Positions 4,222 through 61,824 of a DNA stretch of 64,000 bases are shown here, one piece after another. Under the pieces are notes generated by a model. That model worked only from the letters and a program-made list of their open reading frames with translations. It was not told the DNA's origin and ran no database searches. The DNA is from Acidobacteriota bacterium (GTDB lineage Bacteria > Acidobacteriota > Terriglobia > Terriglobales > Acidobacteriaceae): NCBI GenBank assembly GCA_003225005.1, contig QIAN01000107.1, positions 1-64,000 of the forward strand, written 5' to 3'. The position numbers and the translations under genes are program-made. Each line of letters starts with the position of its first letter. The stretch's first letter is position 1.

Positions 4222-5061
4222 CTACCTCAAATTTGCGCTCGCCTCTAATTCACCGGTATGGCATGCCTCCAGCCAACGGAACAAAAACTCCAGCAATGCC
4301 GCCGGGGGTTTGAGCCACACTTGGGCTGCGGTATTCCGACGCTGAGGCCGCACCAGCACAGTCAAGCCCCGGTTCTCGAGAGTTTGGAAAGCAAGTTCGT
4401 CAGTCGCATCATCCCCCAGGTACGCAACGGGAGCGTCGGGCCCGATTTCATCAAGGATGGTTCGAACGGCATCACTTTTGTCTCGATCGGAAACACGAAG
4501 TTCAACTCCGCCGTCGAACTCCAAAAGAGTGAGCGAAGCGCGGTCCGCCAGAGGGGACCAGCCCAGCAAAATTCTTCCACGAAGCTTAATCGCCGACGGT
4601 TCGTCGAGTCCGCGCCAGTGGACCGCGATGCTTCCCGGCTTGGGCTCTGCCATTTGCTGTAGTCCCTGATACGTCAACCAGCGACCCGCATCAGCCAAGG
4701 CTTCGATGGCGTCCTGATCTATCTCCGGCATCTCACAGGTTCCATCGGGCAACAAGCGTTGCAGGCCATGAGACCCCCAGATTTCGGGACACGGCTTGAC
4801 GCCAAGTAAAGGACCCACCTCATAAGCATTTCGGCCGCTGATAATCACAACGCGAGTACGGCCAGTATCCACAAGTTCTTGAAGCAGGGTTGTCACCCCT
4901 GCATAGGGAAGAGCCCGTTTGCGATCAATAGAAAATGGCGCCAGCGTACCGTCATAATCCAACAGCAGCGCAGAATTCTGCGATTGCGCTACAGAGCGCA
5001 GGAACGGTTCAACTTCGTGTTCATCAACAGTGCTCAACAACATCCTCCTCCTCACAGTCAT
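4222..5061 (-). CDS. otsB: Trehalose-6-phosphate phosphatase
   Basis: HAD motif LLLDYDGTLAPF, YLGDDATDELAFQ; overlaps the otsA-like gene by 4 bp. Confidence 0.88.
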   Translation of the reverse strand: MTVRRRMLLSTVDEHEVEPFLRSVAQSQNSALLLDYDGTLAPFSIDRKRALPYAGVTTLLQELVDTGRTRVVIISGRNAYEVGPLLGVKPCPEIWGSHGLQRLLPDGTCEMPEIDQDAIEALADAGRWLTYQGLQQMAEPKPGSIAVHWRGLDEPSAIKLRGRILLGWSPLADRASLTLLEFDGGVELRVSDRDKSDAVRTILDEIGPDAPVAYLGDDATDELAFQTLENRGLTVLVRPQRRNTAAQVWLKPPAALLEFLFRWLEACHTGELEASANLR

Positions 5062-7343
5062 CCGACCGATGCGCCCCGGTGAGCCTTGCGGGCCTTTTCA
5101 GGAACGTCCAGACGGAGTTCGCAAAGATCCGCAATCAGGGTTCCCGCCCAGTGGTAAACATTGCGCTCTCGGACTATTTTCCGCATACGCTGGAGGCGCA
5201 ACTGCTTCTCTTCCGGTTCCATTTCCAGGGCGGCGTGAATGGCCTCTGCCGTTTGGTCGATGTCGTAGGGGTTTACCTGCAACGCGTCGGTCAATTCTCG
5301 CGCCGCACCGGTAAAGCAACTAAGGATCAGAACCCCCCGCTCGTCGCTCCGTGCCGCCACAAACTCCTTCGCCACTAAATTCATGCCATCGTGGAGCGCG
5401 GTTACCAGGCAGAGATCGGCGGCCCGGTAGTAAGCCTGAATTTCCTTATGGCTGTGCTGCCAGTTCAGTAAGACTATCGGTTTCCACCTGTCGAGTCGAA
5501 AGCGCCAGTTGATGCGGTCGGCTTCTGCCTCGACCTCAGCTTGCAGATCATGGTAACGTTTGATGTGACTGCGGCTGGGAGCGCCAATCTGGATAAATGT
5601 GAATTGGCCCTGATACCGTGGATACTTCTCGAGAAACCGCTCGATTGCCAGGAAGCGCTCCAAAATGCCCTTTGTGTAGTCCAAACGGTCGACGCCCACA
5701 CCCAGGAACGCGGCTTCAATTCCCAATGCCTTTAGCAAGGCCGACCGCTCCACATAGGGTGGCTCCTGCGCAGTTTCTCCACCTGCGTCCGCGAAGTCCA
5801 CGCTGATCGGGAATGGCCGCACCATGGTTAGATGACCGTGGCGTTGTACGGAGAAACGTTCTCGATCGATGCGCGATTCCACAATTCGATCGGCGGTCTG
5901 GAGGAAGTTATTGCAGTGCGACTGTATATGGAAACCGATCAGGTCGGCGCCCAGGAGTCCATCCACTAGTTCTCGCTGCCAAGGGCAAATGCCGAATGCC
6001 TCCTGGTTGGGCCAAGGAATATGCCAGAAAATTGCCACTCGAGCATCGCGTCGTCTCTGTTTGATCAGCCGGGGCAGCAGCGCGAAATGGTAGTCCTGCA
6101 CCAGAACGACCGGGTTTATCGTGCCTTCCATCTCTTCGAGCAAAGCGTCAGCGAACTTGTTGTTGACAGCCTGGTAGTGTTGCCAATCATTAGCACGGAA
6201 GATCGGCCGGGTGTGAGCGATGTGGCAGAGAGGCCAAAGACCCTCGTTGGCAAACCCGTAGTAGTAGCCTTCCTCTTCTTCTTTGGTGAGCCATACGCGC
6301 CGCAGCGTGTATTGCGGATCCTCTGGCGGTACGCGCAAACGGTTATGGTGGTCAATCGCTTCCATGTCGGCGTCACCGCTGCCGTGAGCGATCCATGTTC
6401 CGTCGCAGGCGCAGAGCACCGGTTCGAGCGCCGTTACCAGTCCACTGGGCGGAACGCTAACTTCCAGGAATTTGCCACGCCGGGTGTGCATATAGGGCTC
6501 ACGATTGGAGACGACGAAAAGTCGCCCGTCTCCCAAACGGGAGCGAATATGAATGGCGAGCCGGTCGGCCGTCCACTGGGATTGTCCCTCCTCGCGTAGC
6601 CGAGCCTCGGTTTCCGCGGCGGATCGGGCGGTGGTCAGTGTTTCCGCAAAGGTTGCGACCTCGCGTGCCAGCGGGCGGAACAGTTCCATGTCCGGCACCT
6701 TGATGCGCGTCGAAGATGCGCGACCGGTGCGCAGTGCTCGCATCCACTGCGCGGTGCGGGCAATTGGTCCTGCGATGCTCCAACGGACTATCAACAACGT
6801 GATGAGGACTATGAGAAATACGTGGGCCAGGGCGCTGAGGAATGTTTCTCGCCAGATACGAAGACTCTGATCCTTGATGTAGCCGGCATCATGCACGATC
6901 GCCAGAACGCCCCTGACATCCTCCTGGCGATGCAGGGGCAAAGCATAGATGTTCACCGGGGCAGTTCCCAACCGCTGGAAGACGTCAGCTCCATGATTCC
7001 CGTTCAACGCCTGGGACATTACCGGTGGAGCAGTGGGCATGAGTGGAGCGAGATCTTTGGTTATTGCGATGAGGCGGCCTTGACGGTCGTATACGGCCAG
7101 GCCCAGCAAGTGTTCACGGTTTCCGAAGCGCTGCACCGTGCGTTGCAGGGCCTGAATTGAATCCCTGTCGAGTTCGCGCTCAACATTCCGCGCCAGACTC
7201 TCCCCCAACACCTCGGCACGTCGTTGAAGATCTCTGCGCAGGCTCTGCTTCTGCACCAAGACCTCGTAGTACGAGGACGATAGCGACACGAGCGTCACGC
7301 CGATAATGAGAGAGACTATTAGCCGAGCGCTCAACAGTCGCAT
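5058..7343 (-). CDS. otsA: Trehalose-6-phosphate synthase (GT20) with N-terminal transmembrane sensor/HAMP-like region
   Basis: GT20 signatures VSNREPY, VQDYHFALLPRLIKQRRRDARVAIFWHIPWPN, GVDRLDYTKGILERFLAIERFL, TALHDGMNLVAKEFVAAR. The first ~230 aa hold two TM segments flanking an extracytoplasmic loop. Confidence 0.9.
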   Translation of the reverse strand: MRLLSARLIVSLIIGVTLVSLSSSYYEVLVQKQSLRRDLQRRAEVLGESLARNVERELDRDSIQALQRTVQRFGNREHLLGLAVYDRQGRLIAITKDLAPLMPTAPPVMSQALNGNHGADVFQRLGTAPVNIYALPLHRQEDVRGVLAIVHDAGYIKDQSLRIWRETFLSALAHVFLIVLITLLIVRWSIAGPIARTAQWMRALRTGRASSTRIKVPDMELFRPLAREVATFAETLTTARSAAETEARLREEGQSQWTADRLAIHIRSRLGDGRLFVVSNREPYMHTRRGKFLEVSVPPSGLVTALEPVLCACDGTWIAHGSGDADMEAIDHHNRLRVPPEDPQYTLRRVWLTKEEEEGYYYGFANEGLWPLCHIAHTRPIFRANDWQHYQAVNNKFADALLEEMEGTINPVVLVQDYHFALLPRLIKQRRRDARVAIFWHIPWPNQEAFGICPWQRELVDGLLGADLIGFHIQSHCNNFLQTADRIVESRIDRERFSVQRHGHLTMVRPFPISVDFADAGGETAQEPPYVERSALLKALGIEAAFLGVGVDRLDYTKGILERFLAIERFLEKYPRYQGQFTFIQIGAPSRSHIKRYHDLQAEVEAEADRINWRFRLDRWKPIVLLNWQHSHKEIQAYYRAADLCLVTALHDGMNLVAKEFVAARSDERGVLILSCFTGAARELTDALQVNPYDIDQTAEAIHAALEMEPEEKQLRLQRMRKIVRERNVYHWAGTLIADLCELRLDVPEKARKAHRGASVG

Positions 7344-15250: not shown

Positions 15251-16102
15251 TTGTATTTCCGGCCCAACACGCTCGACGAGGCGGTTCACGTGCTGGCCAG
15301 CTCCGGAGGCCAAATCCTGGCGGGCGGCACCGACTTTTTCCCTTCCCTTGGTGATCGGCCGGTTACCGGGACCGTGGTGGATATTTCGGGGCTCGGTGAA
15401 CTGAAAGGTGTAGTCAAGCAGCCGAAGCATATACGGATCGGCGGGCTGACCACCTGGACCGAAGTCGTCAAGACTCCACTTCCGCGGGGCTTTGACGGGT
15501 TGAAGGCCGCTGCACGGGAAATCGGCGGGATTCAGATTCAGAATCGTGCGACCGTGGCTGGGAATCTTTGCAACGCATCCCCCGCCGCTGATAGCGTTCC
15601 GCCCTTGCTCACGCTCGACGCTGACGTCGAACTTGTTTCGCAGGCGGGGGTACGCCGAGTTGCGCTGGCGGACTTCATAGTGGGCAATCGGAAAACCTTG
15701 CGGCGGCCGGGCGAAATCCTCTCCCAGATATTCGTGCCGCGTAGAGTTGAGAATGCTGCGTCAACATTTCTGAAGCTGGGAGCTCGACGTTATCTGGTGA
15801 TCTCGATCGCGATGGTTGCCGCTGTCATCCGGATGGATTCTGGTGGTCGGGTAACAGACGCGCGTGTCGCTATCGGCTCTTGCTCCGTCGTGGCGAGACG
15901 GCTTCCGGACTTGGAGCACGCGCTGATTGGCGCGTCTGTGGCTTCTGTCGGGGCATCGCCCACCTTGGGATCACTTGCGACTGCGGATCATCTTAAGGAC
16001 CTGTCACCCGTCAGCGACGTTCGCGCCACGGCTGCTTACCGGTGCGACGCTGCTTTACGATTGGTGCAGCGCGCTCTGGATGCGTGCGCGGGGAGTTCAT
16101 GA
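15251..16102 (+). CDS. FAD-binding subunit of xanthine dehydrogenase-family molybdoenzyme (CoxM/XdhB/NdhF-like)
   Basis: TTG start; FRPNTLDEAVHVLASSGGQILAGGTDFFPSL, IGGIQIQNRATVAGNLCNASPAADSVPPLLTLDA. Confidence 0.9.
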   Translation: MYFRPNTLDEAVHVLASSGGQILAGGTDFFPSLGDRPVTGTVVDISGLGELKGVVKQPKHIRIGGLTTWTEVVKTPLPRGFDGLKAAAREIGGIQIQNRATVAGNLCNASPAADSVPPLLTLDADVELVSQAGVRRVALADFIVGNRKTLRRPGEILSQIFVPRRVENAASTFLKLGARRYLVISIAMVAAVIRMDSGGRVTDARVAIGSCSVVARRLPDLEHALIGASVASVGASPTLGSLATADHLKDLSPVSDVRATAAYRCDAALRLVQRALDACAGSS

Positions 16103-18920
16103 TGGCCAGCATCGCTCCCGCATCGGAAACAAAGTGTCTGCTTAAGCTGGTGGTGAATGACCGCAAGCTATCGGTGGTCGCTCCCCCCGTCCAAAGGCTT
16201 TCGCGCGTTTTGCGGGAACAACTCGGACTCACGGGAACGAAAGTTGGTTGTGATGCCGGAGATTGCGGCGCCTGCACCGTTCTGCTGGATGGAGAAGCGG
16301 TTTGCGCTTGCCTGGTGGCGGTGGGCCAGGTCGAAAACCATGCAATCACGACTATCGAAGGACTGAAATCCAGACCTCCACTATTTGACCGCCTGCAAGA
16401 TGCATTTCTTAGGCACGGAGCCGCACAATGTGGGGCCTGCACGCCGGGCATGCTGGTCTCGGCCACCGCGCTTCTGGAGCACAATAGTTCGCCTTCCGAA
16501 AGCGAAGTGACGGATGCGCTTGGCGGTGTGCTCTGCCGCTGCACGGGATATAGAAAGATAATCACTGCTGTTCTCGACGCGGCGGTTCTCAATACTGGCC
16601 CAGAGTCCGCAGAGCCTTCTTGTCCCACCGCGGGAGCTTCGGTTGGTCAGCGACTGGTCCGCCTGGATGGTAAGCCAAAAGTTGAAGGCACGGAGATCTA
16701 CGGAGCAGACGAGATACCGGCTGGCGCGCTCGCCCTACGTGTCGTGCGATGCCCGTATCATCGGGCGAAGTTTCGCTTCGGTGATCTGGAGGCGTTCGTT
16801 GCGGCTCATCCCGGCGTGGAGGCGATTCTTACCTCCAAAGACGTGCCGGGTGAAGATTGTTACGGCGTGATTGCAAGCTTTGCGGATCAGCCGATTTTTG
16901 CGCACGAGGAAGCTCGGCATCGGGGTGAAGCCGTCGCTGCGATTGTCGGCGAAGCACAGGCAATCGAAGAGCTTGATACGGCAACCTTCCCAGCCAGCTG
17001 GGAGGAATTGCCTTTGCTCAGAACCATTGATGAAGCTCTCGCGCCCGGTGCTCGGCTCATCCATGCTCATCGCCCGGAGAACGTGCTGACTCGCGGACGC
17101 GTGGCGCGAGGGAATGTAGAGCAGGCTCTAGCTGAGGCGGATGCAGTCGTTGAAGGCGAATTTGAAACCGGCTTCGTCGAGCATGCCTGCATCGAGCCTG
17201 AAGCCGGATTTGCTCGGCGCGTGGGCGATCAGATCGAGATCCAGGCCTGCACCCAGTCGCCATACATGGACCGGGCGGATATCGCGAAGCTTCTGGGAAT
17301 TGCTGTCGAAGCGGTGCGGATTATTCCAACCGCTGTCGGCGGCGGCTTCGGCACAAAGCTGGACCTGTCGGTTCAGCCATTCTCGCACTTGCCGCGTGGC
17401 GTTTGCGGCGGCCGGTGCGTATGGTTTATTCACGCATCGAGTCCATCATGGCCACGACCAAGCGCCATCCCGCACGCATGCGCTGCCGCGCCGGGGCAAC
17501 CAAGGACGGCGAATTGCTTGCGCTTGATTTCACCGCCGATTTCAACACCGGCGCCTATTCGTCTTGGGGGCCTACGGTTGCGGCGCGCGTTCCGGTGCAT
17601 GCTTCCGGACCGTATGCGGTCCCGCACTACCGGGCACTGACGCGGGCCATCCACACCAACGTTGTTCCTGCTGGCGCATTTCGTGGCTTCGGCGTGCCGC
17701 AAATGGCAATCGCGCAAGAACAACTCTATGACGATCTCGCAATCAAACTCGGGATCGACCCTCTCGAATTTCGCATCTTGAACGCGCTCGACGATCAATC
17801 TCCCACGGTCACCGGGCAAATTATGGGAGAAGGCGTAGGCATTCGCGCCTGCTTCGAAGCCCTGCGCCCTAAGTGGAATACGGCGCGCGCCGAGGCCGTG
17901 AAATTCAATGCAACCACCGCCGGGCCGATTCGCCGGGGTGTTGGCGTGGCGGGAATGTGGTACGGGTGTGGGAACACGTCACTGCCAAACCCTTCCACCG
18001 TGCGCATCGGGCTAAAGCGGGATGGCAGAATTGCGCTGCACCAGGGGGCGGTCGACATTGGCCAGGGATCGAATACGATCGTCACGCAAATTTGCGCTGA
18101 CGCTTTATGCGCAGCGGTCGAGTGCTTCGATTTGATTTCTGGAGATACCGCAGTTACGCCCGATTGCGGTAAGACGTCGGCATCGCGGCAGACATTTGTC
18201 ACCGGCAAAGCGGCGCACATGGCCGGAAAAGAACTCCGCCGGGCCATTCTTCGACTCGCGAATACGCGCGCGGATTGCGAAGACAACCTCATTGTTTTCG
18301 GCGAGGGGGTGCTAACCATCCATGAAGGCGGGAAACCGCGTGATTTTCCTTTGCAAGATTTGCCGCTTGATAAGTACGGCTACGTGCTAACTGCGGAGCA
18401 GACCTTCGATCCACCGACCAGCCCGCTAGACGAAGACGGGCAGGGCAACCCGTATGCTGTCTACGGATTCGGCGCCCACATGGCGGAAATCGCTATCGAC
18501 ATTGAGCTAGGAACGGTGCGGGTGGTGAAGGTCACTGCCGCACACGATGTGGGTCGAGCCATCAACCCCACCCTGATTGAGGGTCAAATCGAGGGCGGCG
18601 TCGCCCAGGGGCTCGGCATGGCTTTAATGGAGGAATTCTTTCCGGGCAAAGGCGAAAACTTGCATGACTACCTGATTCCCTCGGCCGGCGACATACCTCC
18701 GGTCGAATCGATCCTGATTGAAGACCCGTCTCCCATCGGGCCATTCGGGGCGAAAGGCATCGGCGAGCAGGCCGTGATCCCGACGGCGCCGGCGATCCTG
18801 AATGCGATTCACCACGCGACCGGGGTACGCATGCGCCGGATTCCCGCAACCCCGGACCGCATACGCGAGGCTATCCTCGCCCGCACTTCCGGTGACGGCG
18901 GTGGAGCCAGTCGTGCCTGA
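16099..18920 (+). CDS. Fused [2Fe-2S] + molybdopterin subunit of xanthine dehydrogenase-family enzyme; interrupted by a 1-nt frameshift near 17382
   Basis: ORF 16042-17640 carries 2Fe-2S motifs GCDAGDCGACTVLLDG, CGACTPGML, LCRCTGYRKI and the start of the Mo domain (GGGFGTKLDLSVQPF). ORF 17403-18920 continues it (RLRRPVRMVYSRIESIMATTKRHPARM...GAFRGFGVPQ...GAKGIGEQAV). Adding one C after 17382 (TTC CTC GCA CTT GCC GCG TGG) restores a ~940 aa frame. Confidence 0.85.
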
Positions 18921-20379
18921 CCACGACGCCATCCGTTGCGACGCCTGCCCGGTCCTCTGTTACATTAAGCCCGGCCGCACCGGTGCATGCGATCGATACG
19001 GCAACCAGGATGGTCAACTCGTTCGCCTGGATCCTCATGTTGTGCTGGATCGAGCTGTGTCGCGTGGTGACTCGGTTGTGCCTTTCCTGGAGCGCAATCG
19101 CGACTGGGACGGCAACATCGTGAGCGGTCCCGCAACCTTCGTCACCGCCATTGGTGCGGGCACGACCTATCCCGACTACAAACCTGCTCCATTCATCATC
19201 TCTTCTGAAGTCGCAGGTGTGGACATGGTGACGGTCGTGACCGAGGGCATCTTCAGCTACTGTGGAGTGAAGGTAAAGATCGATACCGATCGTCACTTGG
19301 GGCTGGAGCGCAATCTGGTGCGTGCGAAAGGCGAACCGGTGGGGCACGTTACCACCAGCGAATACGGGTCGCAGATGCTCTCGCTGGGCGGCGTCCGTCA
19401 TCTCACCGGCGGTACCCGCGACGAAGGCAATGCTACTTGCGAAACCCTGCTCAACTTATGCAACGGCAAAGCGGCCGAGCTAACGATTGATGAAGGGGCA
19501 GATGTTGTCGTGCAGGCGGGCAAGCCTCCCGTCGTAAACGGAGTGGTGGAAGAGCGCATGCGCGTCGGCTGCGGTTCGGCAACGATCGGCATGTTCGCCA
19601 AGCAGTGGCACGAAAAGATTGACGACGTTGTGGTGGTGGACGATCACATCACAGGGGTCCTCTCCGAGCACCAGGCGGGGAAAATGCTCGGCATCCCTGA
19701 AACCGGCATCAAGATGAAGGGCCGTCGCTCCACACCGGGCCGCTACTTCCGGGTCGCGGAGCCGGGCACGGCGTGGGGTGGTACGAAAATTACCGACCCG
19801 CTCTCAATCCTCGCACCGTTCAATCCCAAAATTGCATGGCCCGGTTTGCGGCTGCTGATGGTGAGCACCACTGGCGAGCATCACGCATACTACGAACTGG
19901 ACGATGCCCTCCGTCCCCTGGAAAAGGATTTGCCTGATTCGCTGCGGCTTTCCGTGCAAAGAATCAAAGAGAATTGCGAACCCGCACTCTCAACCGTTCT
20001 CTTTATGGGCGGGGCCGGAGGCTCGTTGCGCGCGGGGGTCACTGCGAATCCAGTTAAGCTAACGCGCTCGGTGAGAGATTCATTAACTCGCGTCACTTGC
20101 GGCGGCGCACCTGTTTATGTCTGGCCGGGGGGTGGAATCACGCTCATGGTGGACGTCAGCCGGATGCCGGAGAATGCGTTCGGGTACGTGCCCACTCCCG
20201 CTTTGGTCGCGCCCATCGAGTTCACGCTTAAGCTCGATGACTACTCGGCTCTGGGCGGCTACGTGGATCGGGTGCGCCCGCTGAGCTCGCTTTTGAATGA
20301 TGAAGGACGCCGTCACGTGTCGGCACGTGCCGAAAATCCCTGGCCATTCGAGGACAAGAGTAGGAGATCCCAATCGTGA
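18913..20379 (+). CDS. 6-hydroxynicotinate reductase-like Fe-S protein
   Basis: GTG start overlapping the upstream stop; N-terminal IRCDACPVLCYIKPGRTGACDRYG (CxxCxxxCx9C) and the family-like central region; resembles proteins annotated as 6-hydroxynicotinate reductase. Confidence 0.75.
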   Translation: MPDHDAIRCDACPVLCYIKPGRTGACDRYGNQDGQLVRLDPHVVLDRAVSRGDSVVPFLERNRDWDGNIVSGPATFVTAIGAGTTYPDYKPAPFIISSEVAGVDMVTVVTEGIFSYCGVKVKIDTDRHLGLERNLVRAKGEPVGHVTTSEYGSQMLSLGGVRHLTGGTRDEGNATCETLLNLCNGKAAELTIDEGADVVVQAGKPPVVNGVVEERMRVGCGSATIGMFAKQWHEKIDDVVVVDDHITGVLSEHQAGKMLGIPETGIKMKGRRSTPGRYFRVAEPGTAWGGTKITDPLSILAPFNPKIAWPGLRLLMVSTTGEHHAYYELDDALRPLEKDLPDSLRLSVQRIKENCEPALSTVLFMGGAGGSLRAGVTANPVKLTRSVRDSLTRVTCGGAPVYVWPGGGITLMVDVSRMPENAFGYVPTPALVAPIEFTLKLDDYSALGGYVDRVRPLSSLLNDEGRRHVSARAENPWPFEDKSRRSQS

Positions 20380-21284
20380 GAGCCCGAGCGCAAGTGCGAG
20401 TTCTGCCCGACGGGCGGCGACTGCATCTGCAGGATGGGCCCATTGACATCGTGCTGCAGGCATTGGGCGCCGAGGATCAAATCCGCCGCGCTCACCGCAC
20501 TGCAGCCGATCGCTTTGTCACGGTGCTCGACGAGCTTTGCAGCGAGCTCCCGCTACTGAGGGAACAGGTGCGTTTGGGCGGAACAGAACCTGACGGTATC
20601 GTCGCTCGGCGCATGTTCGCCGCCGTGGTGCCTTACGCCGAAGAGAACTTCATCACTCCCATGGCTGCCGTGGCGGGCGCTGTTGCGGAAGAGATTTTGG
20701 CGGCGATGACTGCGGTTGCCGATCTCTCGCGGGCTTATGTGAATGACGGTGGTGACATCGCGCTGCACATCGCTTCCGGAGAACGATTCGTCATCGGCAT
20801 GGTCGATCTGCCGGACCGGCCGACGCTGCTTGGATCGCTACTTGGAAGTATGACCCTGGATTCAAACCAGCCGGTTCGAGGCATCGCAACCAGTGGGTGG
20901 CGGGGCCGCAGTTTTTCGCTGGGCATCGCTGATGCCGTCACCATACTGGCGAAGACTGCAGCTATGGCGGATGCTGCTGCAACCATCGTCGCCAATGCCG
21001 TGGACCTCCCGGGGCATCCAGCCATATCGCACATTGCCGCCCGCGAACTCTCGCCCGACAGCGATCTGGGTGACAGGCTTGTGACCACCGCAGTCGGAGG
21101 ACTCACGTCCGCGGAAGTAAGCGAGGCTCTGGGTCGCGGTTCGGCTTGTGCCGAACGCTTGATCGCCCCGGGATTGATTGCTGCCGCGGCTCTGAACCTG
21201 CAAGGGACAATTCGCGTCGTGCCCTCGGTCGAATCTCCGAAAATGGCTCTCTCATCCGGCGAGAGGAGCTTGGCGTATGCCTGA
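20376..21284 (+). CDS. UPF0280 family protein (ApbE-like superfamily)
   Basis: RVLPDGRRLHLQDGPIDIVLQALG, AVAGAVAEEILAAM, AYVNDGGDIALHI, GIATSGWRGRSFSLGIADAVTILAKTAAMADAAATIVANAV; GTG start overlaps the previous stop by 4 bp. Confidence 0.8.
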   Translation: MRARAQVRVLPDGRRLHLQDGPIDIVLQALGAEDQIRRAHRTAADRFVTVLDELCSELPLLREQVRLGGTEPDGIVARRMFAAVVPYAEENFITPMAAVAGAVAEEILAAMTAVADLSRAYVNDGGDIALHIASGERFVIGMVDLPDRPTLLGSLLGSMTLDSNQPVRGIATSGWRGRSFSLGIADAVTILAKTAAMADAAATIVANAVDLPGHPAISHIAARELSPDSDLGDRLVTTAVGGLTSAEVSEALGRGSACAERLIAPGLIAAAALNLQGTIRVVPSVESPKMALSSGERSLAYA

Positions 21285-21861
21285 CGTTCGGCTCCGAAAA
21301 AAGTTGATCGCCGTGGAAGAAATCTTTCATGAAGGGGGTCCTGTTTCCCGCGTGCCGCTGCGGCGAGCGGCCGCCTTGGCCGTAATTCATAATCCGTTTG
21401 CTGGCGTTTACGTGGAAGAGATTGCCGAGTTCATGGACGACCTGAAACCCCTTGGACTCGACCTGGCGAACTCGCTGGTTTCGGCGCTTGGGGGCAACAT
21501 CAAATCTGTGGAGGGCTATGGGAAGGGCGCCATCGTAGGCTCGTCCGGCGAACTGGAGCACGGAGCCCTCTGGCATGTTCCCGGCGGTTATGCGATGCGG
21601 GAAGTTCTCGGCGGAGCGAAAGCGATTGTGGCGTCTACCAAGAAAGTCGGCGGACCGGGAACGCGGCTCGATGTGCCCGTCACCCACATCAATGCGTCCT
21701 ACGTGCGAAGCCATTTCGATGCCATGGAAGTCGGCCTGGCCGATGCTCCGCGGGCCGATGAGATTCTGCTGGCGCTGGTGATGACCACCGGTCCCCGCGT
21801 TCACGCCCGCGTCGGCGGCCTCAAAGCCTCGGAGATCAATGGAGAGGACGGACTGCGATGA
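21277..21861 (+). CDS. DUF1185 / 'amino acid synthesis' family protein, copy 1
   Basis: RRAAALAVIHNPFAGVYVEEIAEFMDDL, SVEGYGKGAIVGSSGELEHGA, SYVRSHFDAMEVGLADAPRADEILLAL. Confidence 0.78.
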   Translation: MPDVRLRKKLIAVEEIFHEGGPVSRVPLRRAAALAVIHNPFAGVYVEEIAEFMDDLKPLGLDLANSLVSALGGNIKSVEGYGKGAIVGSSGELEHGALWHVPGGYAMREVLGGAKAIVASTKKVGGPGTRLDVPVTHINASYVRSHFDAMEVGLADAPRADEILLALVMTTGPRVHARVGGLKASEINGEDGLR

Positions 21862-22454
21862 AAGTCCCACAGGGAGCGAAGATTCGCAAGATTGCAACCT
21901 TCGTCGAAGAGACGAGAACCGAGATGGGCCGGACCATCGATCCGCCAACTCGGCGTGCCGCCGCGGTCGCCGTCATTGAAAATCCTTACGCCGGAAAATA
22001 TGTGGAAGAGCTGTCTGAGCTGATGCTGATCGGCGAGGAACTGGGTGAACTGCTCACGCTGCGCGCGGTCGCGGCTCTGGGCATACCGGCGACCAGCGTC
22101 GAGAGCTATGGCAAGGCGGCGGCCGTGGGCGAAAACGGTGAGATCGAGCACGCCGCGGCGATTCTCCATCCCAAACTTGGTACGCCAGTAAGACGAGTGC
22201 TCGGCAAAGGCGCCGCCCTCATCCCATCTTCGAAGAAGCGAGGCGGGATGGGTGTCGCCCTCGATGTGCCGCTGGGGCACAAAGACGCCGCTTTCGTCCG
22301 CAGCCACTTCGATGGCATGGAGGTGCGAATCAATGACGCTCCCCGGGCCAACGAAATCGTCGTGGCGGTCGCGGTGACGGACAGCGGCCGGCCGCTCGCG
22401 CGGGTCGGAGGATTGACGAAGGATCAGATCAAGGGTGAAGACGGCTTACGGTAG
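21858..22454 (+). CDS. DUF1185 / 'amino acid synthesis' family protein, copy 2
   Basis: Paralog of the preceding ORF (RRAAAVAVIENPYAGKYVEELSELM, SVESYGKAAAVGENGEIEHAA, FVRSHFDGMEVRINDAPRANEIVVAV); 4-bp overlap. Confidence 0.78.
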   Translation: MKVPQGAKIRKIATFVEETRTEMGRTIDPPTRRAAAVAVIENPYAGKYVEELSELMLIGEELGELLTLRAVAALGIPATSVESYGKAAAVGENGEIEHAAAILHPKLGTPVRRVLGKGAALIPSSKKRGGMGVALDVPLGHKDAAFVRSHFDGMEVRINDAPRANEIVVAVAVTDSGRPLARVGGLTKDQIKGEDGLR

Positions 22455-22564
22455 CCGGGATTCGATCCTGTGGCGCCGGTATCTGTGCTGCGATTTTTGG
22501 TACACACTGCAGCATTGTCTTAAAAGCTTAAAATGAGTCGCGGCTCCAGCCGCTGGGGTAACGA

Positions 22565-23974
22565 ATGACTTTGTGTCGATCTTTGGCTCTTGTTCTCGCC
22601 TTCCAATTCCTTGTTCTCACCTCTCTCTGGTCTCAAGCGACAAAAGAGAAGGCCGATCTGATCGTAACTCGCGGAACCGTCGTTACCATGGATGGAGCCC
22701 GATCCATCTACGACGACGGAATTATCGTTGTGAAGGGTGACACGATTGTTGCGGTTGGGCCGCGCCGCGAGCTCGAGGGCAAGTATCGAGCCTCGGAGAC
22801 GGTCAATGCCAAAGGCGGGCTGGTTCTGCCCGGGTTCATCAATGGTCACACCCATGTGCCCATGACCCTGTTTCGGGGCATTCACGATGATGTGACGCTG
22901 AATGATTGGCTCTATAAATACATTTTTCCTGCCGAGAAGAGGAACGTGAACGAAGAATTCGTACGCTGGGGCACGCGGCTGGCGGCAGCGGAGCAGATTC
23001 GCGGGGGCGTCACTACATTCGCTGACATGTACTACTTCGAAGACGCGGTGGCCGAAGAAACCAAAGCCGCAGGCATGCGGGGCCTGCTAGGCGAGACATT
23101 TATCGATTTTCCCGCGCCCGACAACAAGAGCGAAGCCGAGGCGCTCTCTTATACCGAGAAGTTCCTGAAAAAGTGGCAGGGCGATCCGTTGATTCACGCC
23201 GCAGCGGCGCCGCACGCAATTTACACCTGTTCCAGGAAGACGCTTCAGGACGCCGCGACGCTGGCTAGGAAATATCACGCCCCGATCCTGATTCACACCG
23301 GGGAGATGAAAAAGGAGTGGGATGACAGCCAGAAGCAAAACGGAATGTCGCCGGTGCAATACCTCGACAAGATCGGCGTGCTGGGTCCGGACGTGGTGTC
23401 CGCCCACTGCATTTTTGTGGACGAAGCCGACCGCAAGACTCTAGCGCAACGGCAAGTGGGCTGCGTACATAACCCGTCGAGCAACATGATGATCGCCAGC
23501 GGTGTTGCTCCCGTCCCGGAAATGCGGGCTGAGGGAGTCTCCGTCGGCCTCGGAACCGATGGACCGGCGGGCAGCAACAACGACCTCGACCTGATGGAGG
23601 AGATGGACCTGGCAGCGAAGCTCGCAAAGATTACGAAGATGAATCCACTGGCGTTGAATGCGAAAGCGGTTGTGGAAATGGCGACCATCGATGGTGCGAA
23701 AGCCCTGCACATGGAAAAAGAGATTGGTTCGCTCGAAGCTGGAAAGAAAGCGGACATCGTCTTGATCAGCTTGGATGAGCCGAATGCTGTCCCGATGTAC
23801 GACATCTACGCACAACTGGCGTATGCACTAAAGGGCAGCGATGTGGAGACGGTGGTGATTGGCGGGCGCGTGGTCATGCGCGACCGCAAAGTCCTGACGG
23901 TGAACGAAACAGAAGTCATGGCGAGGGCGCGCGATTATCGGAAGACGATCGCGGCATCGCTGGGCCTGCCGTGA
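22565..23974 (+). CDS. Amidohydrolase/deaminase of the TrzA/AtzA/SsnA type with predicted signal peptide
   Basis: Signal-like MTLCRSLALVLAFQFLVLTSLWSQ; GLVLPGFINGHTHVPMTLFRGI, HTGEMKKEWDDS, SAHCIFVDEAD, HNPSSNMMIASGVAPV, GLGTDGPAGSNNDLDLMEEM. Confidence 0.85.
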   Translation: MTLCRSLALVLAFQFLVLTSLWSQATKEKADLIVTRGTVVTMDGARSIYDDGIIVVKGDTIVAVGPRRELEGKYRASETVNAKGGLVLPGFINGHTHVPMTLFRGIHDDVTLNDWLYKYIFPAEKRNVNEEFVRWGTRLAAAEQIRGGVTTFADMYYFEDAVAEETKAAGMRGLLGETFIDFPAPDNKSEAEALSYTEKFLKKWQGDPLIHAAAAPHAIYTCSRKTLQDAATLARKYHAPILIHTGEMKKEWDDSQKQNGMSPVQYLDKIGVLGPDVVSAHCIFVDEADRKTLAQRQVGCVHNPSSNMMIASGVAPVPEMRAEGVSVGLGTDGPAGSNNDLDLMEEMDLAAKLAKITKMNPLALNAKAVVEMATIDGAKALHMEKEIGSLEAGKKADIVLISLDEPNAVPMYDIYAQLAYALKGSDVETVVIGGRVVMRDRKVLTVNETEVMARARDYRKTIAASLGLP

Positions 23975-23996
23975 TCGAGAGCAGTGAGGCGAGAGT

Positions 23997-25196
23997 TCAC
24001 GGTTTTACGACTTCTGGCACCATCGTCGCGGGCGGGGTGTTGCGGCTGCGCTGGGCGCTTACCATTCCGTCGATGATTACCATCCCAATTCCCGGCAAGT
24101 CTCCCCTCTGGATGCTTTCGAGCACAGTCTGTCCCGGCGAATGCTGGGCTTTGTCGATCATCACGAAGGTCGCGACGCGCCCCCGCTCGATCAATCCACA
24201 GTCCAGGTTTCGGATTCTTGCGGTATTCCCGGTGGCAAAGCAGATGGCAACCTCGGCCGACTCACCTGCGAGCGACGACAGCATCGAGATCATGCGCAAG
24301 ATGCCGAGCGGCTGCACTCCAGAACCGGCTGGCGAATCCGTGCCCAGAATCACTCGATCAAGGCGCTTTAGTTCTCTTGCCGTCCGCAAAGTAAGCAGCG
24401 CCGCTTTTTCGTTGCCGTTGTGAACAATCTCGAGAGCTCGCGGCGACTTCTCGCACAGGGCGACGATCTGGGCATCCGGCAGCGCAGTATGGCCGCCATT
24501 GATGTGGCCGATGACATCGGCGTCGGTGGCAAGCACGATGTCTTTGTCAATCAAACTGGAGCCCGGAATCGAAGGCCCGCCGGTATGAATCGTGCTTTGA
24601 ATGCCATACTTCCGCGCCCAGGCGACCATCTGGCGGGCCGTCGCGCCGTCTTTCACGCTGCCCAAGCCAACCTCGCCGAGCATAGTGACACCGGCGGCTG
24701 CAAGGTCTTTGAAATCCTCCTCGACCATTCCATGCTCGATCACTGGCGCGCCCGCATGAATTCTCACGCCACCGGGACGGAAGGCCGAAAAGGCCCGCTG
24801 GGCAAAGATCGCCATGGCTTTCAGCCCAACTACATCTTTCGGGCGGCCGGGGGTGTGCACTTCACCTGCGGAAACCATGGTGGTGACTCCGCCATGCAGA
24901 TAGCTGTCGATCCAGCCAATCTGATTCTGACGCGGCGTCCAGTCTCCGGCTACCGGATGCACATGGCTGTCGATCAATCCCGGCGCGAGCGTTGTGCCTT
25001 TGGCGTCGATTCGGATGGTCGCGCTTGCGGTATCGAGATCCTTTGCTTTGCCGACTGCACTAATCTTGCCGTTAACGGCGACCACCGTGTCGGCATCGAG
25101 AATCGGATTTCCGATGTCTCCGCTCAACAGCAGCCCTATGTTGTGGATCACGAGCCGAGCCGGAGCGACAGACTCGCTTGTCTGCCCTTGAGCCAT
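23997..25196 (-). CDS. Enamidase-like amidohydrolase
   Basis: ARLVIHNIGLLLSGDIGNPILDADTVV, APGLIDSHVHPVAGDWTPRQNQIGWIDSYLHGGVTTMVSAGEVHTPGRPKDVVGLKAMAI, HTGGPSIPGSSLI, HINGGHTAL, GTDSPAGSGVQPLGILR, SRNTPPA; resembles Eubacterium barkeri enamidase as remembered. Confidence 0.78.
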   Translation of the reverse strand: MAQGQTSESVAPARLVIHNIGLLLSGDIGNPILDADTVVAVNGKISAVGKAKDLDTASATIRIDAKGTTLAPGLIDSHVHPVAGDWTPRQNQIGWIDSYLHGGVTTMVSAGEVHTPGRPKDVVGLKAMAIFAQRAFSAFRPGGVRIHAGAPVIEHGMVEEDFKDLAAAGVTMLGEVGLGSVKDGATARQMVAWARKYGIQSTIHTGGPSIPGSSLIDKDIVLATDADVIGHINGGHTALPDAQIVALCEKSPRALEIVHNGNEKAALLTLRTARELKRLDRVILGTDSPAGSGVQPLGILRMISMLSSLAGESAEVAICFATGNTARIRNLDCGLIERGRVATFVMIDKAQHSPGQTVLESIQRGDLPGIGMVIIDGMVSAQRSRNTPPATMVPEVVKP

Positions 25197-25354
25197 TCGC
25201 CACCTTCCGCAACAAATCTTTGATGCGCGCCAGTATACAGACCGGCTCTGGTTCAGCAAAAACACCGCACCCAGGCAGCCAAAGGCATGGAAGAATTCGA
25301 ACTTTAGAAGTAAAATCCCGATTCTGACTAGTCAGGGTCCGAGCGAGGCCAAGC

Positions 25355-25978
25355 ATGCGATCTCCAGATACCATCCTGTGGTGTGTAGACGCCCAGAAAG
25401 ACTTCATGCTGCCCGGCGGCAAGCTTTACGTGCCCGGTGCCGAGAAGTTGCTCCCCAATATTCGTCGGCTTGTCGACGTGGCGCGTGACGGCCGCGCCTT
25501 CCTTGTTTCGCACGGCTGCTTTCATATCGCGGACGACCCTGAGTTCAAAACGTTTCCGCCCCACTGCGTCAAAGGAACAGCCGGCGCCGACTTCGTTCCT
25601 GAAGCACTGTCTGAGGATCACATGCGGGTTTTGAACGAGCCCGGGTCATTCCTGCCCGAAGATTTCCAGCGACACCAGCAGGTCATTCTCGAAAAGCAGA
25701 CGCTCGATATCTTCGAAAGTCGGCATGCCAATGCGTTGCTCGAACGTCTTGATCGAAACGCGCAGTTCGTCGTCTTCGGAGTGGTGACGGAATACTGCGT
25801 CAGGTTCGCAGCCAAGGGGCTGCTGGAACGAAACCGAAAGGTTTGGGTGGTGAACGATGCAATTGAAACTCTGAGTCGCGAAGCGGAAGAACGAACCCTC
25901 TCAGAACTGGCAACGTTGGGCGCGAACTTTGTCACCACCGACGAAGCTCTGGCTCGATTAGCGACTACGGCCGATTGA
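25355..25978 (+). CDS. Isochorismatase-like cysteine hydrolase (nicotinamidase-related)
   Basis: ILWCVDAQKDFMLPGGKLYVPGAEKLLPNI, FPPHCVKGT, FGVVTEYCVRFAAKGLLERNRKVWVVNDAI (catalytic Asp, Lys and Cys regions). Confidence 0.85.
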   Translation: MRSPDTILWCVDAQKDFMLPGGKLYVPGAEKLLPNIRRLVDVARDGRAFLVSHGCFHIADDPEFKTFPPHCVKGTAGADFVPEALSEDHMRVLNEPGSFLPEDFQRHQQVILEKQTLDIFESRHANALLERLDRNAQFVVFGVVTEYCVRFAAKGLLERNRKVWVVNDAIETLSREAEERTLSELATLGANFVTTDEALARLATTAD

Positions 25979-56321: not shown

Positions 56322-57596
56322 TTATGAAAGTGAAGCTGTAAGCCGCTGCACGAATCGGTAAACATCCAAGTAGGAGTTATAGAGAGGCACCGGAGCAACC
56401 CGGAGAATGTCAGGGTGGCGCCAGTCGGCAATTACTCCTTGTGCGGCAAGTCGTTCGCACAAAGACTGGCCGTGGCGCAGGATTCGTAGCGAAAGTTGGG
56501 CACCACGTCGCTCTGGTTCGCGCGGGCTAATGATCGAGAAAATCGGCGAGGAGTGCTGGCCAAGCAAAAACTCCAAGTAGCCCGTCAGTGCAACACTCCT
56601 CTGCCGTACGCGGTCCATGCCCGCCTCGCTAAAAATTTCCATCGACGCGCGCAATGCAGCCAGGGCAAGAATCGGGGGGTTGCTCAACTGCCAGCCCTCA
56701 GCTCCTGCCATGGGTTGGAAGTCAGGGCCCATTTCAAATCTCGTTTGTTCATCATGGCCCCACCACCCCGCAAAACGCGGCAGGTTCCAGGCATTCGAGT
56801 GCCGCTCGTGGACAAAACAGCCTCCCGCGCAGCCGGGACCGCCATTCAAATATTTGTAGCCGCACCACACCGCAAAATCCGGACCCCACTCATGGAGTTT
56901 CAAAAGCAAGTTTCCGGCAGCATGAGCGAGATCAAAGCCCACGACGCACCCTCGCGCTTGCCCGCTTCGCGCAATGGCTGCCATGTCAAACCCCTGACCC
57001 GTGGCGTAGTTCACTCCTCCCAACAAAATCAGAGCGATGGAGCTACCGTCACGTTCAATGGTCGATGTGACATCTTCGTCGCGGATGCACTCTTCACCCG
57101 GGCGCGGCTTCAATTCGATCAGTGAAGAGGCAGGACCGAATCCATGAAAATGCATCTGCGACGTAACCGCATATCGGTCCGATGGGAATGCGCCGTGCTC
57201 GATCAGAATCTTGTGCCGCTTTGCGGTTGGTCGGTAAAACGAAACCATCATCAGGTGAAGATTCACCGTGAGCGAATTCATCACCACGACTTCTCCCAGC
57301 TTTGCTCCCACGAGCATAGCCGTTTGTTCAGTCAGTAGCCGGTGGTAGGGCATCCACGGGTTCCGGGCTCGGAAGTGGGCGTCAACTCCAAGTTGCGCCC
57401 AGTCCTGCAGCTCCTGCTCAATGTAATCTTTTGTTCGTTTTGGCTGCAGGCCAAGCGAGTGGCCGCCAAAATATAGGCAGTCGTCCCCTGCTGCCGTCTG
57501 CGGAAATGAAAAACGCTCGCGATAGATCGCCAGAGGATCACGAGCGTCCATCGCTCGCGCGTAGTCGTCGGTGTCCTCAAAGGTCATGCGATTCAC
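56322..57596 (-). CDS. kynU: Kynureninase
   Basis: YFGGHSLGLQPKRTKDYIEQEL, VGFDLAHAAGNLLLKLHEWGPDFAVWCGYKYLNGGPGCAGGCFVHER. Confidence 0.95.
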   Translation of the reverse strand: MNRMTFEDTDDYARAMDARDPLAIYRERFSFPQTAAGDDCLYFGGHSLGLQPKRTKDYIEQELQDWAQLGVDAHFRARNPWMPYHRLLTEQTAMLVGAKLGEVVVMNSLTVNLHLMMVSFYRPTAKRHKILIEHGAFPSDRYAVTSQMHFHGFGPASSLIELKPRPGEECIRDEDVTSTIERDGSSIALILLGGVNYATGQGFDMAAIARSGQARGCVVGFDLAHAAGNLLLKLHEWGPDFAVWCGYKYLNGGPGCAGGCFVHERHSNAWNLPRFAGWWGHDEQTRFEMGPDFQPMAGAEGWQLSNPPILALAALRASMEIFSEAGMDRVRQRSVALTGYLEFLLGQHSSPIFSIISPREPERRGAQLSLRILRHGQSLCERLAAQGVIADWRHPDILRVAPVPLYNSYLDVYRFVQRLTASLS

Positions 57597-58960
57597 TGCT
57601 CCTGCTCCAAGGGAGTAAGTTGCGTCGTGATGAGGCGCCCTGCTTTGGCCCAGTCGAGATCCTCAATGCGTCCAATATGATCACAAATTTCCGACAAGAT
57701 ACGGTCCTGAATCGCTCCCCGCGCAAGGGCAACCGAGTATGGAATTCGATGAAACGTCACCATCGCATACTTTGGCACGAACTGGCGGGGATGCCGCGCC
57801 TCCAGGGCCAGCTCAACCTGCTTTCTGAAAAGAAATCGCGGATCCGCGACACGGTCCCTCATCTCAGCAAAGTTTTCGATGGCCAGATCGGCGATCGCGT
57901 CGGTATTGATCTTGCGCTTTTGATCAAATTCCTTAAACACGCGCGGCCAGTCTAGGCCATGACGGTCCAGCAGTTCCAAGAGCTGCGTGCAGTCTTCGAA
58001 GCCGCAATTAAGCCCTTGCCCGAAGAACGGAACAATGGCATGGGCCGCATCACCCAGAAGAAGAGACTTGCCTTCCACGTACCACGGCGAGCATTTGATC
58101 GTGACCATCGTTCCCGTAGGGTTTGTGAAGTAATTATCCGTGAGATGGGGTGTCAGTGGAACTACATCAGGAAAGCGACCCTCGAAAAACTTAACCACAT
58201 CCCAGTGCCTTGTCAGCGTGGCAAAACTGTCCGGTCCCTCGAAGGGCAGAAACAAGATACAGGCAAACGTGCCGTCAACATTGGGCAACGCGATCAGCAT
58301 GAAGCTGCCACGAGGCCAAATGTGCAGCGCATGCTTCTCCAAAGCATGGCCGCCATTGAGCTTCGACGGAATGGTGAGCTCTTTATAGCCGTAATCGAGG
58401 TATTGCTGAGAAAAGTTGAATCGATTAAGTTTCAACATCTCGTGGCGAATGGCCGAAGCCGAGCCGTCGCATCCGATCACAACGTTGGACTCCAGGGTTG
58501 TTTCTTGACGCGACTCTTCATGGCGCAACCGGAGCGCGCCACTTTTCAATTCAAATCCGATGCAGCGCTGATCAAAGTGAATGGCTGCGCCTTGCACTTC
58601 AGCTGCATTCATCAACGCGACATTCAATTCAGCGCGCGAGATCGAGTTGATGACTTCTGCTTCGTCCTTGCCGTAGGGCTGAAAAGTTAGTTCCCCAGCG
58701 ATCGAATGCATCATCCGTCCTTTCATGGGAATGATGAGGTTGCGCAGAGAGTCCCACAGGCCAGCTGTCTGCAAGGCATGAATGCCGCGTGTAGACAGCG
58801 CGAGATTGATGGATCGTCCAGCCTCGATGCGAACGCGACGCATGTCCGGACGGCGCTCATAGATCTCGACCCGGAATCCTCGCTTCGCCAAGGAGAGGCC
58901 TAGCAGCGGGCCGTTAAGTCCAGCGCCGATAATTGTGATGGTTTGGGGCCTACTAAGCAT
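57593..58960 (-). CDS. kmo: Kynurenine 3-monooxygenase
   Basis: ITIIGAGLNGPLLGLSLAKRGFRVEIYERRPDMR, GRSINLALSTRGIHAL, LLGDAAHAIVPFFGQGLNCGFEDC; 4-bp overlap with kynU. Confidence 0.95.
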   Translation of the reverse strand: MLSRPQTITIIGAGLNGPLLGLSLAKRGFRVEIYERRPDMRRVRIEAGRSINLALSTRGIHALQTAGLWDSLRNLIIPMKGRMMHSIAGELTFQPYGKDEAEVINSISRAELNVALMNAAEVQGAAIHFDQRCIGFELKSGALRLRHEESRQETTLESNVVIGCDGSASAIRHEMLKLNRFNFSQQYLDYGYKELTIPSKLNGGHALEKHALHIWPRGSFMLIALPNVDGTFACILFLPFEGPDSFATLTRHWDVVKFFEGRFPDVVPLTPHLTDNYFTNPTGTMVTIKCSPWYVEGKSLLLGDAAHAIVPFFGQGLNCGFEDCTQLLELLDRHGLDWPRVFKEFDQKRKINTDAIADLAIENFAEMRDRVADPRFLFRKQVELALEARHPRQFVPKYAMVTFHRIPYSVALARGAIQDRILSEICDHIGRIEDLDWAKAGRLITTQLTPLEQEQ

Positions 58961-59003
58961 TCGCAGGAGTGAGTATTACAGAAGTTCAACTCAAATGTTG
59001 GGG

Positions 59004-60872
59004 TTACTCCGTCAGCAAAGTCCTCGCTTCCCACAATTCAGGAAAAAACTTCTTGTCCAACGTGTGCTTCAGATAGGATGCCCCGGCACTTCCGCCCGTG
59101 CCCATTCGAATTCCGATAATGCGTTCGACCAGCTGAATGTGTCGTAAACGCCAACTCACCACTAGTTCGTCAAATTCCGTCAGGCGCTCACACACGTCAA
59201 TCCAGTAACGGTAGTGTTGCTCATTTTTGTAGAGGGACAGAATAGCGCGAGAGCGAGTTTCGAATTCCTGTTCTTCCGATGCCCCCGGCTCCGGAGCCGG
59301 AAGTGTTCCCATCGCCTGTAAGGCTTCGAAGAAAACGTGGTGTAGTGATGGTTCGCGCAGCCTGCGTTCGAGCCGCCGATGAGCTTCCGGAGTGGGCTTG
59401 TGGTAAGCAAGCATCTTAGCGTCTTTTAGACCGCACAAGAACTCCAACTCACGAAATTGCTCAGACTGAAATCCGCTCGCCGGCTCCAGCTTGTCGCGAA
59501 ACGCCAGAAAGTGCGTGGGCAACATAGTTTCGAGAATGGTGAACTGCTCCACCAGTACTCGTGTGATTTCTGTACAGCGTCGCAACAGTCGCGCCGCCTC
59601 GTACACTTCGTCTCGCGACTCGGGATTCGCACTGGCCCGTTGCAGATTCGCAACTACCGCGTCCAAGTCGTGGAGCAACTCCTTAAACCACAATTCGTAG
59701 GTCTGATGCACGATGATGAAGAGCAGCTCATCGTGATGGGGCGGCGAAGATTGAGGATGCTGCAAATCCAGCAACTCTGCAACCTCAAGGTAGGAGCTGT
59801 AGCTGAGTCGCTCCGAGTGACCGGCCGACAAACCCCCTTCCTGGGTCAATGCGTCATTATCCCCACGCGCATCCGCCCCTAATTCCAAGCGGAGAAATTG
59901 TTTTGCGTTACCGCCTAGCAACTGGGCCTTCGCACGACCGGATAGATGACTTTCGCGGATCAGCGTGCCGACGTGCTCTTCCCCAAGGGGAAACGGATAA
60001 TCCGAACCAAGCAGGACCCGCTCAGCACTCATCGTACACACCAGGAATTGCAATGTGGGTTCGTCAAAGACGACGGAGTCAACATAGAAACGATTCAGAT
60101 AATGGCGTGGTGGAAATTGGCAAGCCCCTCGCGCTACTCGATGATGGTGCCAAGCGTTCTCCAGCCGACCCAGCAGAAAGGAAAAACTCCCACCACCATG
60201 CGCAAAACAGATCCGTAATGTCGAAGGGAGCCTGTCGAAAGCTCCGCTTAAAATCAGCGCCACCAGCGACAGTTGAGTCTCGGCCGGCATGCCCACGGTC
60301 CAGGGCATCATGTAGTTCGGCATGCGCTGCTGGCCCATCATGTCCCACGGATGGACCAAGACGGCAGCGCCTTCATCGGCACAATGATGAAGGAAGGTCA
60401 CCATGCCGGGATCATCCAGGTTCTTTTCCGCAACGTGATTTCCGATCTGCACTCCGAGATGTCCTGCGCGCATGCAGCGGCTCAGTTCTTTGCACGCTGC
60501 GTCAATATCCTGCAGAGGCACCTGGCACAACGATTTCAACCTGCCTTTCCCTTGGCTGCAAAGTTCGAGCGCCGCATCGTTAAACAATTGCGCGGATTGC
60601 AACGCATGTTGCAACGGACGCTCATACGCAAACAGCACGGGCGTCGCCGAGATCACTTGCAGGTCGACGCCATCGCGGTCCATTTCCTGGAGTCGTACCT
60701 CCGGGTCCCAGCAAGCCGAATAAATATGGCGAAAAAAACGATCGCCCACCATGATGTCCGCTTTGCCTGCCTCTGTGTGCTTGATCCAAGGCCAGTTTGG
60801 CGTGCCGAAGCGCTGAGCAAAGTCAGGCCAGGAACGGGGAAAGAAATGGTTATGTATGTCTATCGCCTGCAT
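59004..60872 (-). CDS. Fusion: aminocarboxymuconate-semialdehyde decarboxylase (N-terminal) + tryptophan 2,3-dioxygenase (C-terminal)
   Basis: ATG 60872 gives MQAIDIHNHFFPRSWPDF...LVHPWDMMG...FAHGGGSFSFLLGRLENAW...LLGSDYPFPLGEE (ACMSD). After a linker follows LSYSSYLEVAELLDLQHPQSSPPHHDELLFIIVHQTYELWFKELLHDLDAV...GTGGSAGASYLKHTLDKKFFPELW (TDO). One continuous frame. Confidence 0.88.
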   Translation of the reverse strand: MQAIDIHNHFFPRSWPDFAQRFGTPNWPWIKHTEAGKADIMVGDRFFRHIYSACWDPEVRLQEMDRDGVDLQVISATPVLFAYERPLQHALQSAQLFNDAALELCSQGKGRLKSLCQVPLQDIDAACKELSRCMRAGHLGVQIGNHVAEKNLDDPGMVTFLHHCADEGAAVLVHPWDMMGQQRMPNYMMPWTVGMPAETQLSLVALILSGAFDRLPSTLRICFAHGGGSFSFLLGRLENAWHHHRVARGACQFPPRHYLNRFYVDSVVFDEPTLQFLVCTMSAERVLLGSDYPFPLGEEHVGTLIRESHLSGRAKAQLLGGNAKQFLRLELGADARGDNDALTQEGGLSAGHSERLSYSSYLEVAELLDLQHPQSSPPHHDELLFIIVHQTYELWFKELLHDLDAVVANLQRASANPESRDEVYEAARLLRRCTEITRVLVEQFTILETMLPTHFLAFRDKLEPASGFQSEQFRELEFLCGLKDAKMLAYHKPTPEAHRRLERRLREPSLHHVFFEALQAMGTLPAPEPGASEEQEFETRSRAILSLYKNEQHYRYWIDVCERLTEFDELVVSWRLRHIQLVERIIGIRMGTGGSAGASYLKHTLDKKFFPELWEARTLLTE

Positions 60873-60873
60873 T

Positions 60874-61401: not shown

Positions 61402-61824
61402 CTACGCCTCCTGTCTCACTGGCTTGTAAGCCATGGCTCTAATCTCGATCAGCAAGTGCGGATGCGGTAACTGATGCACGGCAACCGTCGTGCGCGTTGG
61501 ACCCTCATGGCCAAAATATTCGCCGTACACTTCGTTATACCCAGCGAAGTCGTTCATGTTCACCAGGTAAGCTGAAATCTCAACCACGTCTTGCAGTTGG
61601 GCTCCTTCACTTTGCAGAATATCGCGGATGTTCTCGATAACGGCGCGAGTCTGTATACGGATATCGAGCCGGCTCGTGCCGAACTCGTCCACCTCCGTCC
61701 CGGCGATTGTGTTGTCCGGCCGGCGCGCGCTTGTGCCCGAGACAAAAAGAAAGTCGCCCGCACGTTTGATGTGAGGAAACTTGCCCCGCGGCTTGGCTTT
61801 TCCCTCTACAACTTTGCCTCGCAT
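61402..61824 (-). CDS. RidA/YjgF-family protein, putative 2-aminomuconate deaminase
   Basis: [86 protein letters not shown]; position between haaO and AMSDH. Confidence 0.85.

Follow-up and report, generated by a model that had tools for sequence, protein, structure and literature searches.

We analyzed a 64,000-nt stretch (hereafter the window) of contig QIAN01000107.1, taken from a draft acidobacterial assembly of 550 contigs, in which a preliminary description had placed a reductive nicotinate or N-heterocycle degradation cluster at positions 15251-25978. The open reading frame (ORF) list, combined with Pfam and NCBIfam profile searches of the window proteins, showed that all the genes it had named were present there and in the order it had given. 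The operon part of the cluster lies on the plus strand. It begins with a gene for the FAD (flavin adenine dinucleotide) subunit of a candidate nicotinate dehydrogenase of the xanthine dehydrogenase family (15251..16102; FAD_binding_5 PF00941, 5e-42; CO_deh_flav_C PF03450, 2e-12), which is syntenic in relatives, and continues with the fused 2Fe-2S/molybdenum (Mo) subunit of the same enzyme (16102..18920), a 6-hydroxynicotinate reductase (Hnr)-like protein (18913..20379), a UPF0280 protein (20376..21284) and two DUF1185 (AA_synth) proteins, a (21277..21861) and b (21858..22454). These genes are tightly packed and overlap by 1-8 bases. An enamidase gene (23997..25265, minus strand) is convergent to the operon. 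Because the order FAD-FeS/Mo-Hnr-UPF0280-DUF1185(a,b) recurs across acidobacterial and (alpha)proteobacterial genomes, the arrangement is far beyond chance.

The gene for the fused 2Fe-2S/Mo subunit matched Fer2_2 and MoCoBD_1/2, with its two halves falling in separate ORFs (16042-17640 and 17403-18920). In a relative (L013) the same gene is intact and encodes one chain of ~945 amino acids, and a tblastn search of the window with this homologue gave 81% identity in one frame up to ~17,390 and 84% in another from ~17,380. The preliminary description was therefore right about the presence of the fused gene but had overlooked a 1-base frameshift near 17,380 that breaks its open frame. Given the draft state of the genome (550 contigs), the frameshift may be an assembly error, the alternative being a young mutation. 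The top Protein Data Bank (PDB) match of the C-terminal half of the Mo subunit was chain B of the Eubacterium barkeri nicotinate dehydrogenase (3HRD_B; 131 of ~317 residues identical, 41%), the two proteins having a MWYGxGNTxLPNP stretch in common. Chains A, B and D of 3HRD jointly spanned the whole fused protein (257, 233 and 134 bits, respectively), although the best single PDB chain for the whole protein was the aldehyde oxidoreductase 1DGJ and not 3HRD.

The Hnr-like protein carries an N-terminal Fe-S motif, CxxCxxxC-x9-C, and an alignment of 19 rows revealed 9 invariant Cys, including those of this motif, and 4 invariant His. Homologues in annotated records (plasmids) are named 6-hydroxynicotinate reductase. 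Searches with the protein against Pfam and NCBIfam gave no match, and its sequence found nothing meaningful in the PDB, where it has no solved relative. Its AlphaFold model was poor (mean predicted local distance difference test score, pLDDT, 53) and gave no Foldseek match at E < 0.001, so that no fold was assigned. Between the Hnr of the cluster type known from Azorhizobium and strain SG-6C and its E. barkeri counterpart, 42% identity has been reported (PMC3511419).

The enamidase aligned over its full length with that of E. barkeri (2VUN; E=3.9e-105; residues 37-417; 171/381 identical, 45%). The positions H101/H103, E198, H227, H254 and D310 of the 422-aa ORF, which correspond to the metal ligands expected in the amidohydrolase family, were identical in the alignment with 2VUN and invariant in 8 homologues, so that the HxH/E/H/H/D pattern, which the preliminary description had marked for checking, proved to be conserved. 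Among the same-genus genomes tested, the enamidase was present in all 10 that carry Hnr and missing from the 4 that do not.

The contexts of 68 proteobacterial Hnr loci were then surveyed. A HyuAB pair was found at 15 of the 22 loci without an orthologous enamidase and at 1 of the 46 with it (Fisher p = 5e-9, a test that, like the other counts given here, treats related genomes as independent), and the HyuAB label must have changed at least 7 times across the Hnr tree to account for its distribution. This pair, which replaces the enamidase at Hnr loci L090, L091, L020, L116 and L138-L151, is closest to caprolactamase, with scores below the equivalog cut-off. Because caprolactamase is an ATP-dependent lactam hydrolase, HyuAB fits opening of the lactam ring of 1,4,5,6-tetrahydro-6-oxonicotinate (THON), the expected enamidase substrate. 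These results indicate that the enamidase and the caprolactamase-like HyuAB are mutually exclusive, interchangeable solutions for ring opening. In comparison with the caprolactamase CapAB/HyuAB system, a pair of the same family has thus replaced the enamidase in some proteobacterial Hnr loci, whereas none is present at the window locus.

The same survey showed that the dehydrogenase is also exchangeable. Within ~10 kb, the FAD/Mo pair was present at 45 of the 68 loci; at 11 its place was taken by NicAB, a nicotinate dehydrogenase type with a C-terminal cytochrome c (so named by the depositors in CP030828), and 12 loci had neither in that range. No locus carried the FAD/Mo pair and NicAB together within ~10 kb. 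In addition, PncA (nicotinamidase) or PncB (nicotinate phosphoribosyltransferase) was encoded near 17 of the 68 loci, with the checked examples scoring above the NCBIfam cut-offs. The NicAB swap and the PncA/PncB neighbours therefore point to nicotinate as the substrate. Moreover, the cluster type has been described in Azorhizobium caulinodans, Bradyrhizobium japonicum, Rhodopseudomonas palustris and strain SG-6C, and SG-6C, a member of the Bradyrhizobiaceae, grows on nicotinate and on 6-hydroxynicotinate (PMC3511419).

Three independent lines, namely 2VUN and 3HRD as the closest solved relatives, the NicAB swap together with PncA/PncB, and a nicotinate-growing strain that bears the cluster type, thus support the nicotinate entry pathway that had been proposed for this locus. 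Judged from homology, the gene swaps and the growth phenotype of a relative, the cluster very probably constitutes the entry part of an aerobic pathway for reductive nicotinate degradation, with nicotinate as the most likely substrate. In such a pathway, the FAD and 2Fe-2S/Mo enzyme would convert nicotinate to 6-hydroxynicotinate, Hnr would reduce the latter to THON, and the enamidase would open the THON ring to yield ammonia and 2-formylglutarate. With lower confidence, UPF0280 might attach or load flavin onto Hnr, the DUF1185 pair might act on the enamidase product, for example by decarboxylation to glutarate semialdehyde, and glutarate semialdehyde might proceed to glutaryl-CoA as in Azorhizobium. 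In SG-6C, glutarate has been placed downstream by analogy with A. caulinodans (PMC3511419).

Several observations weigh against this interpretation. The identity of Hnr is read from the annotations of its homologues, and this assembly shows a frameshift in the Mo gene. Genes for the downstream glutarate semialdehyde dehydrogenase and glutaryl-CoA dehydrogenase were not identified, and a search with reference proteins found no conserved nicotinate transporter next to the cluster in Acidobacteriota, whereas most proteobacterial copies have a branched-chain-type ABC (ATP-binding cassette) transporter and a MarR regulator alongside. Finally, the cluster is embedded in a nucleoside-catabolism island (window 9101-50661), whose genes, like those of the kynurenine pathway described below, were recognised from their sequences: six IunH-type nucleoside hydrolases, DeoC, a double aldehyde dehydrogenase, two ribokinases, a NupC-type transporter and a thymidine/pyrimidine phosphorylase. 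This setting would suit a purine or pyrimidine base released by the neighbouring nucleoside hydrolases as the substrate, which the Mo enzyme would hydroxylate, the Hnr-like protein reduce and the amidohydrolases open; the Mo subunit also appears, from reading the sequence, to preserve the purine-binding Glu and Arg positions of xanthine dehydrogenase. However, the fungal nicotinate enzyme HxnS retains the same Glu and Arg (PMC5746545), so that these residues do not discriminate between the two substrates, and no nucleoside setting surrounded the cluster in any relative examined. On account of this lack of conservation, and with the enamidase, NicAB, PncA and PncB links favouring nicotinate, a nucleoside base was rejected as the substrate, and we regard it as very improbable.

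An equally improbable alternative is that the chemistry is as proposed and the natural substrate is a related pyridine, such as another hydroxypyridine carboxylate. Earlier authors have noted that the specificity of bacterial nicotinate hydroxylases cannot be read from sequence (PMC5746545), which leaves room for such a substrate; nevertheless, the NicAB swap, the PncA/PncB neighbours and the nicotinate-growing relative argue for nicotinate. The suggestion in the preliminary description that the ring might be a different heterocycle has become the less likely reading. A nicotinate pathway as outlined here would also be compatible with a gene set that is decaying and non-functional in this genome. 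The single-base frameshift near 17380 would agree with such decay, but the rest of the Mo gene is 81-84% identical to the intact relative, all the other operon genes are open and an assembly error is possible in a draft of this kind, so that we consider decay unlikely.

With regard to the accessory genes of the operon, UPF0280 was assigned to its family by NF003322 (394.6 bits, above the cut-off). All Hnr-positive genomes tested encoded a member of the subfamily, which in 4 of them is located apart from Hnr, whereas 20 of 20 Hnr-negative genomes tested lacked it. Its structural model (pLDDT 88) gave as best Foldseek match 2O34, a member of its own family, and all further matches at E < 0.001 were flavin transferases or flavin-trafficking proteins. 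Against FmnB, ApbE and Ftp the Foldseek probability was ~1.0, with TM-scores of just ~0.3-0.46. Ser173 (TSG) and Asp199 (ADxxxT) were invariant and were tentatively assigned to the ApbE triad by motif, not by superposition. The Hnr of E. barkeri carries a covalently bound flavin. The ApbE fold, the co-occurrence with Hnr and this covalent flavin led us to propose UPF0280 as a maturase that loads or attaches the Hnr flavin. Three results count against the maturase idea: the low TM-scores, the finding that the UPF0280 alignment has no invariant His near Ser173 and Asp199 to match that of the ApbE triad, and the occurrence of the canonical flavinylation motif DxxSGA(S/T) in 0 of 19 Hnr sequences. 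Thus, UPF0280 has the fold of the ApbE/FmnB flavin transferases and apparently matches the Ser and Asp of their triad, but differs from them in showing no conserved counterpart of their His and in having no signal peptide, while Hnr lacks DxxSGA(S/T).

Both DUF1185 proteins were recognised by the AA_synth/DUF1185 profile (PF06684; protein a, 7.7e-70; protein b, 1.6e-74; 234 and 250 bits), and protein b also matched PDB 2QTP (2.3e-87). In the proteobacterial survey, DUF1185b was found at 34 of the 46 loci of genomes with an orthologous enamidase compared to 1 of the 22 others. HcdD, a DUF1185 protein, has been reported to be a homologue of TgnF, which in the trigonelline pathway stimulates the oxidation of succinic semialdehyde (PMC7913881). 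It is plausible that DUF1185 acts on the enamidase product, the exact reaction being a guess. The combined proposal that Hnr has in UPF0280 its own dedicated flavin transferase, cytosolic and non-canonical, and that the DUF1185 pair converts 2-formylglutarate to glutarate semialdehyde is put forward tentatively and is, taken as a whole, rather doubtful; if true, it would give functions to two families of unknown role. DUF1185 was also found paired with enamidase paralogues with no Hnr nearby, in Shinella (L097, 8385-10194), Microvirga (L160) and G301 (C2, 663017-664737), where it adjoins the paralogue (which in L097 and L160 is ~43-45% identical to the window's enamidase). These loci suggest a second ring-opening pathway.

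To place the acidobacterial genes among their relatives, Hnr was followed across genomes. It was present in 11 of 25 genomes of the window's genus, the window's own included; of 297 evenly drawn Acidobacteriota genomes, only the window's own carried it, and in the order of Chelatococcus it was present in 75 of 298 genomes. In a maximum-likelihood tree, midpoint-rooted and with the window's copy as row L167, the acidobacterial Hnr sequences formed one clade (100/100) within an otherwise proteobacterial clade of 41 rows (96/93). The simplest reading of this tree is that the acidobacterial genus apparently acquired the set by one transfer from Hyphomicrobiales. In one metagenome-assembled genome of the Hyphomicrobiales (L018, 680-2787), B12-dependent acyl-CoA mutase-like genes were observed upstream of the nicotinate cluster.

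Two further genes that had been counted as parts of the cluster did not hold that place. A nicotinamidase-like cysteine hydrolase with an isochorismatase domain (25355..25978, plus strand), whose best PDB match was the pyrazinamidase/nicotinamidase 1ILW (6.5e-18), was encoded in 22 of the 25 genomes of the genus, irrespective of Hnr. It was thus rejected as a specific part of the pathway and is native to the genus, a neighbour rather than a transferred member. A TRZ/ATZ-type amidohydrolase with an apparent signal peptide (22565..23974, plus strand; Amidohydro_1 PF01979, 1.1e-71) occupied the same position in only one examined acidobacterial relative (L154), and is probably accessory and not a conserved part of the cluster. 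Elsewhere in the window, the minus strand carries kynurenine pathway genes (56322-63454) for kynureninase, kynurenine 3-monooxygenase and an aldehyde dehydrogenase, as well as an ORF (59004-60944) in which an amidohydrolase resembling aminocarboxymuconate semialdehyde decarboxylase (ACMSD) is joined to a tryptophan 2,3-dioxygenase-like domain. A trehalose-6-phosphate synthase-like ORF with an N-terminal membrane sensor-like region (5058-7343) adjoins a trehalose phosphatase-like gene (4222-5061).

If the proposed pathway is correct, aerobic reductive nicotinate degradation extends to the Acidobacteriota, an abundant soil phylum. A literature search found no report of a reductive nicotinate pathway in Acidobacteria, which is weak evidence given its partial coverage. 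The comparison of many copies of the cluster revealed two interchangeable dehydrogenases and two interchangeable ring openers, one being the enamidase and the other an ATP-dependent pair resembling caprolactamase, and yields testable roles for UPF0280 and DUF1185, both uncharacterised families. The gene set is, in addition, relevant to how pesticides are broken down in soil, since SG-6C channels 6-chloronicotinate, which derives from neonicotinoids, into this same route (PMC3511419).

Among known systems, the nicotinate fermentation cluster of the anaerobe E. barkeri, reportedly described by Alhapel in 2006 with dehydrogenase subunits NdhF, NdhS, NdhL and NdhM, carries out the same reaction series with a dehydrogenase and an enamidase homologous to those of the window and with an Hnr apparently of the same family, a likeness that was drawn at the level of these enzymes. 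The dehydrogenase subunits are divided differently, as the Mo protein of E. barkeri is split into NdhL and NdhM whereas relatives of the window carry the 2Fe-2S and Mo domains in one ~945-aa chain. As had been noted before, the window contains no 2-formylglutarate reductase or methyleneglutarate genes. A better model than the fermentation of E. barkeri, with which the locus had first been compared, is the aerobic pathway of Azorhizobium and the Bradyrhizobiaceae, under which the missing methyleneglutarate genes are expected. In the published description of that cluster type, genes for the first three steps are accompanied by an ABC transporter and by two conserved proteins of unknown role (PMC3511419), and the window likewise brings together, for the same Hnr route via THON, the dehydrogenase, Hnr, the enamidase and conserved unknown genes. 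The window differs from it in its acidobacterial host, in the absence of an adjacent branched-chain-type ABC transporter and of a MarR regulator, and in its dehydrogenase, composed of an FAD subunit and a fused 2Fe-2S/Mo subunit where the nearest NicAB-bearing Hyphomicrobiales loci use the cytochrome c type. All in all, the pathway type is already known and its acidobacterial member is new, as are the ApbE fold of UPF0280 and its tracking of Hnr, the tracking of the enamidase by DUF1185b and the replacement of the enamidase by HyuAB.

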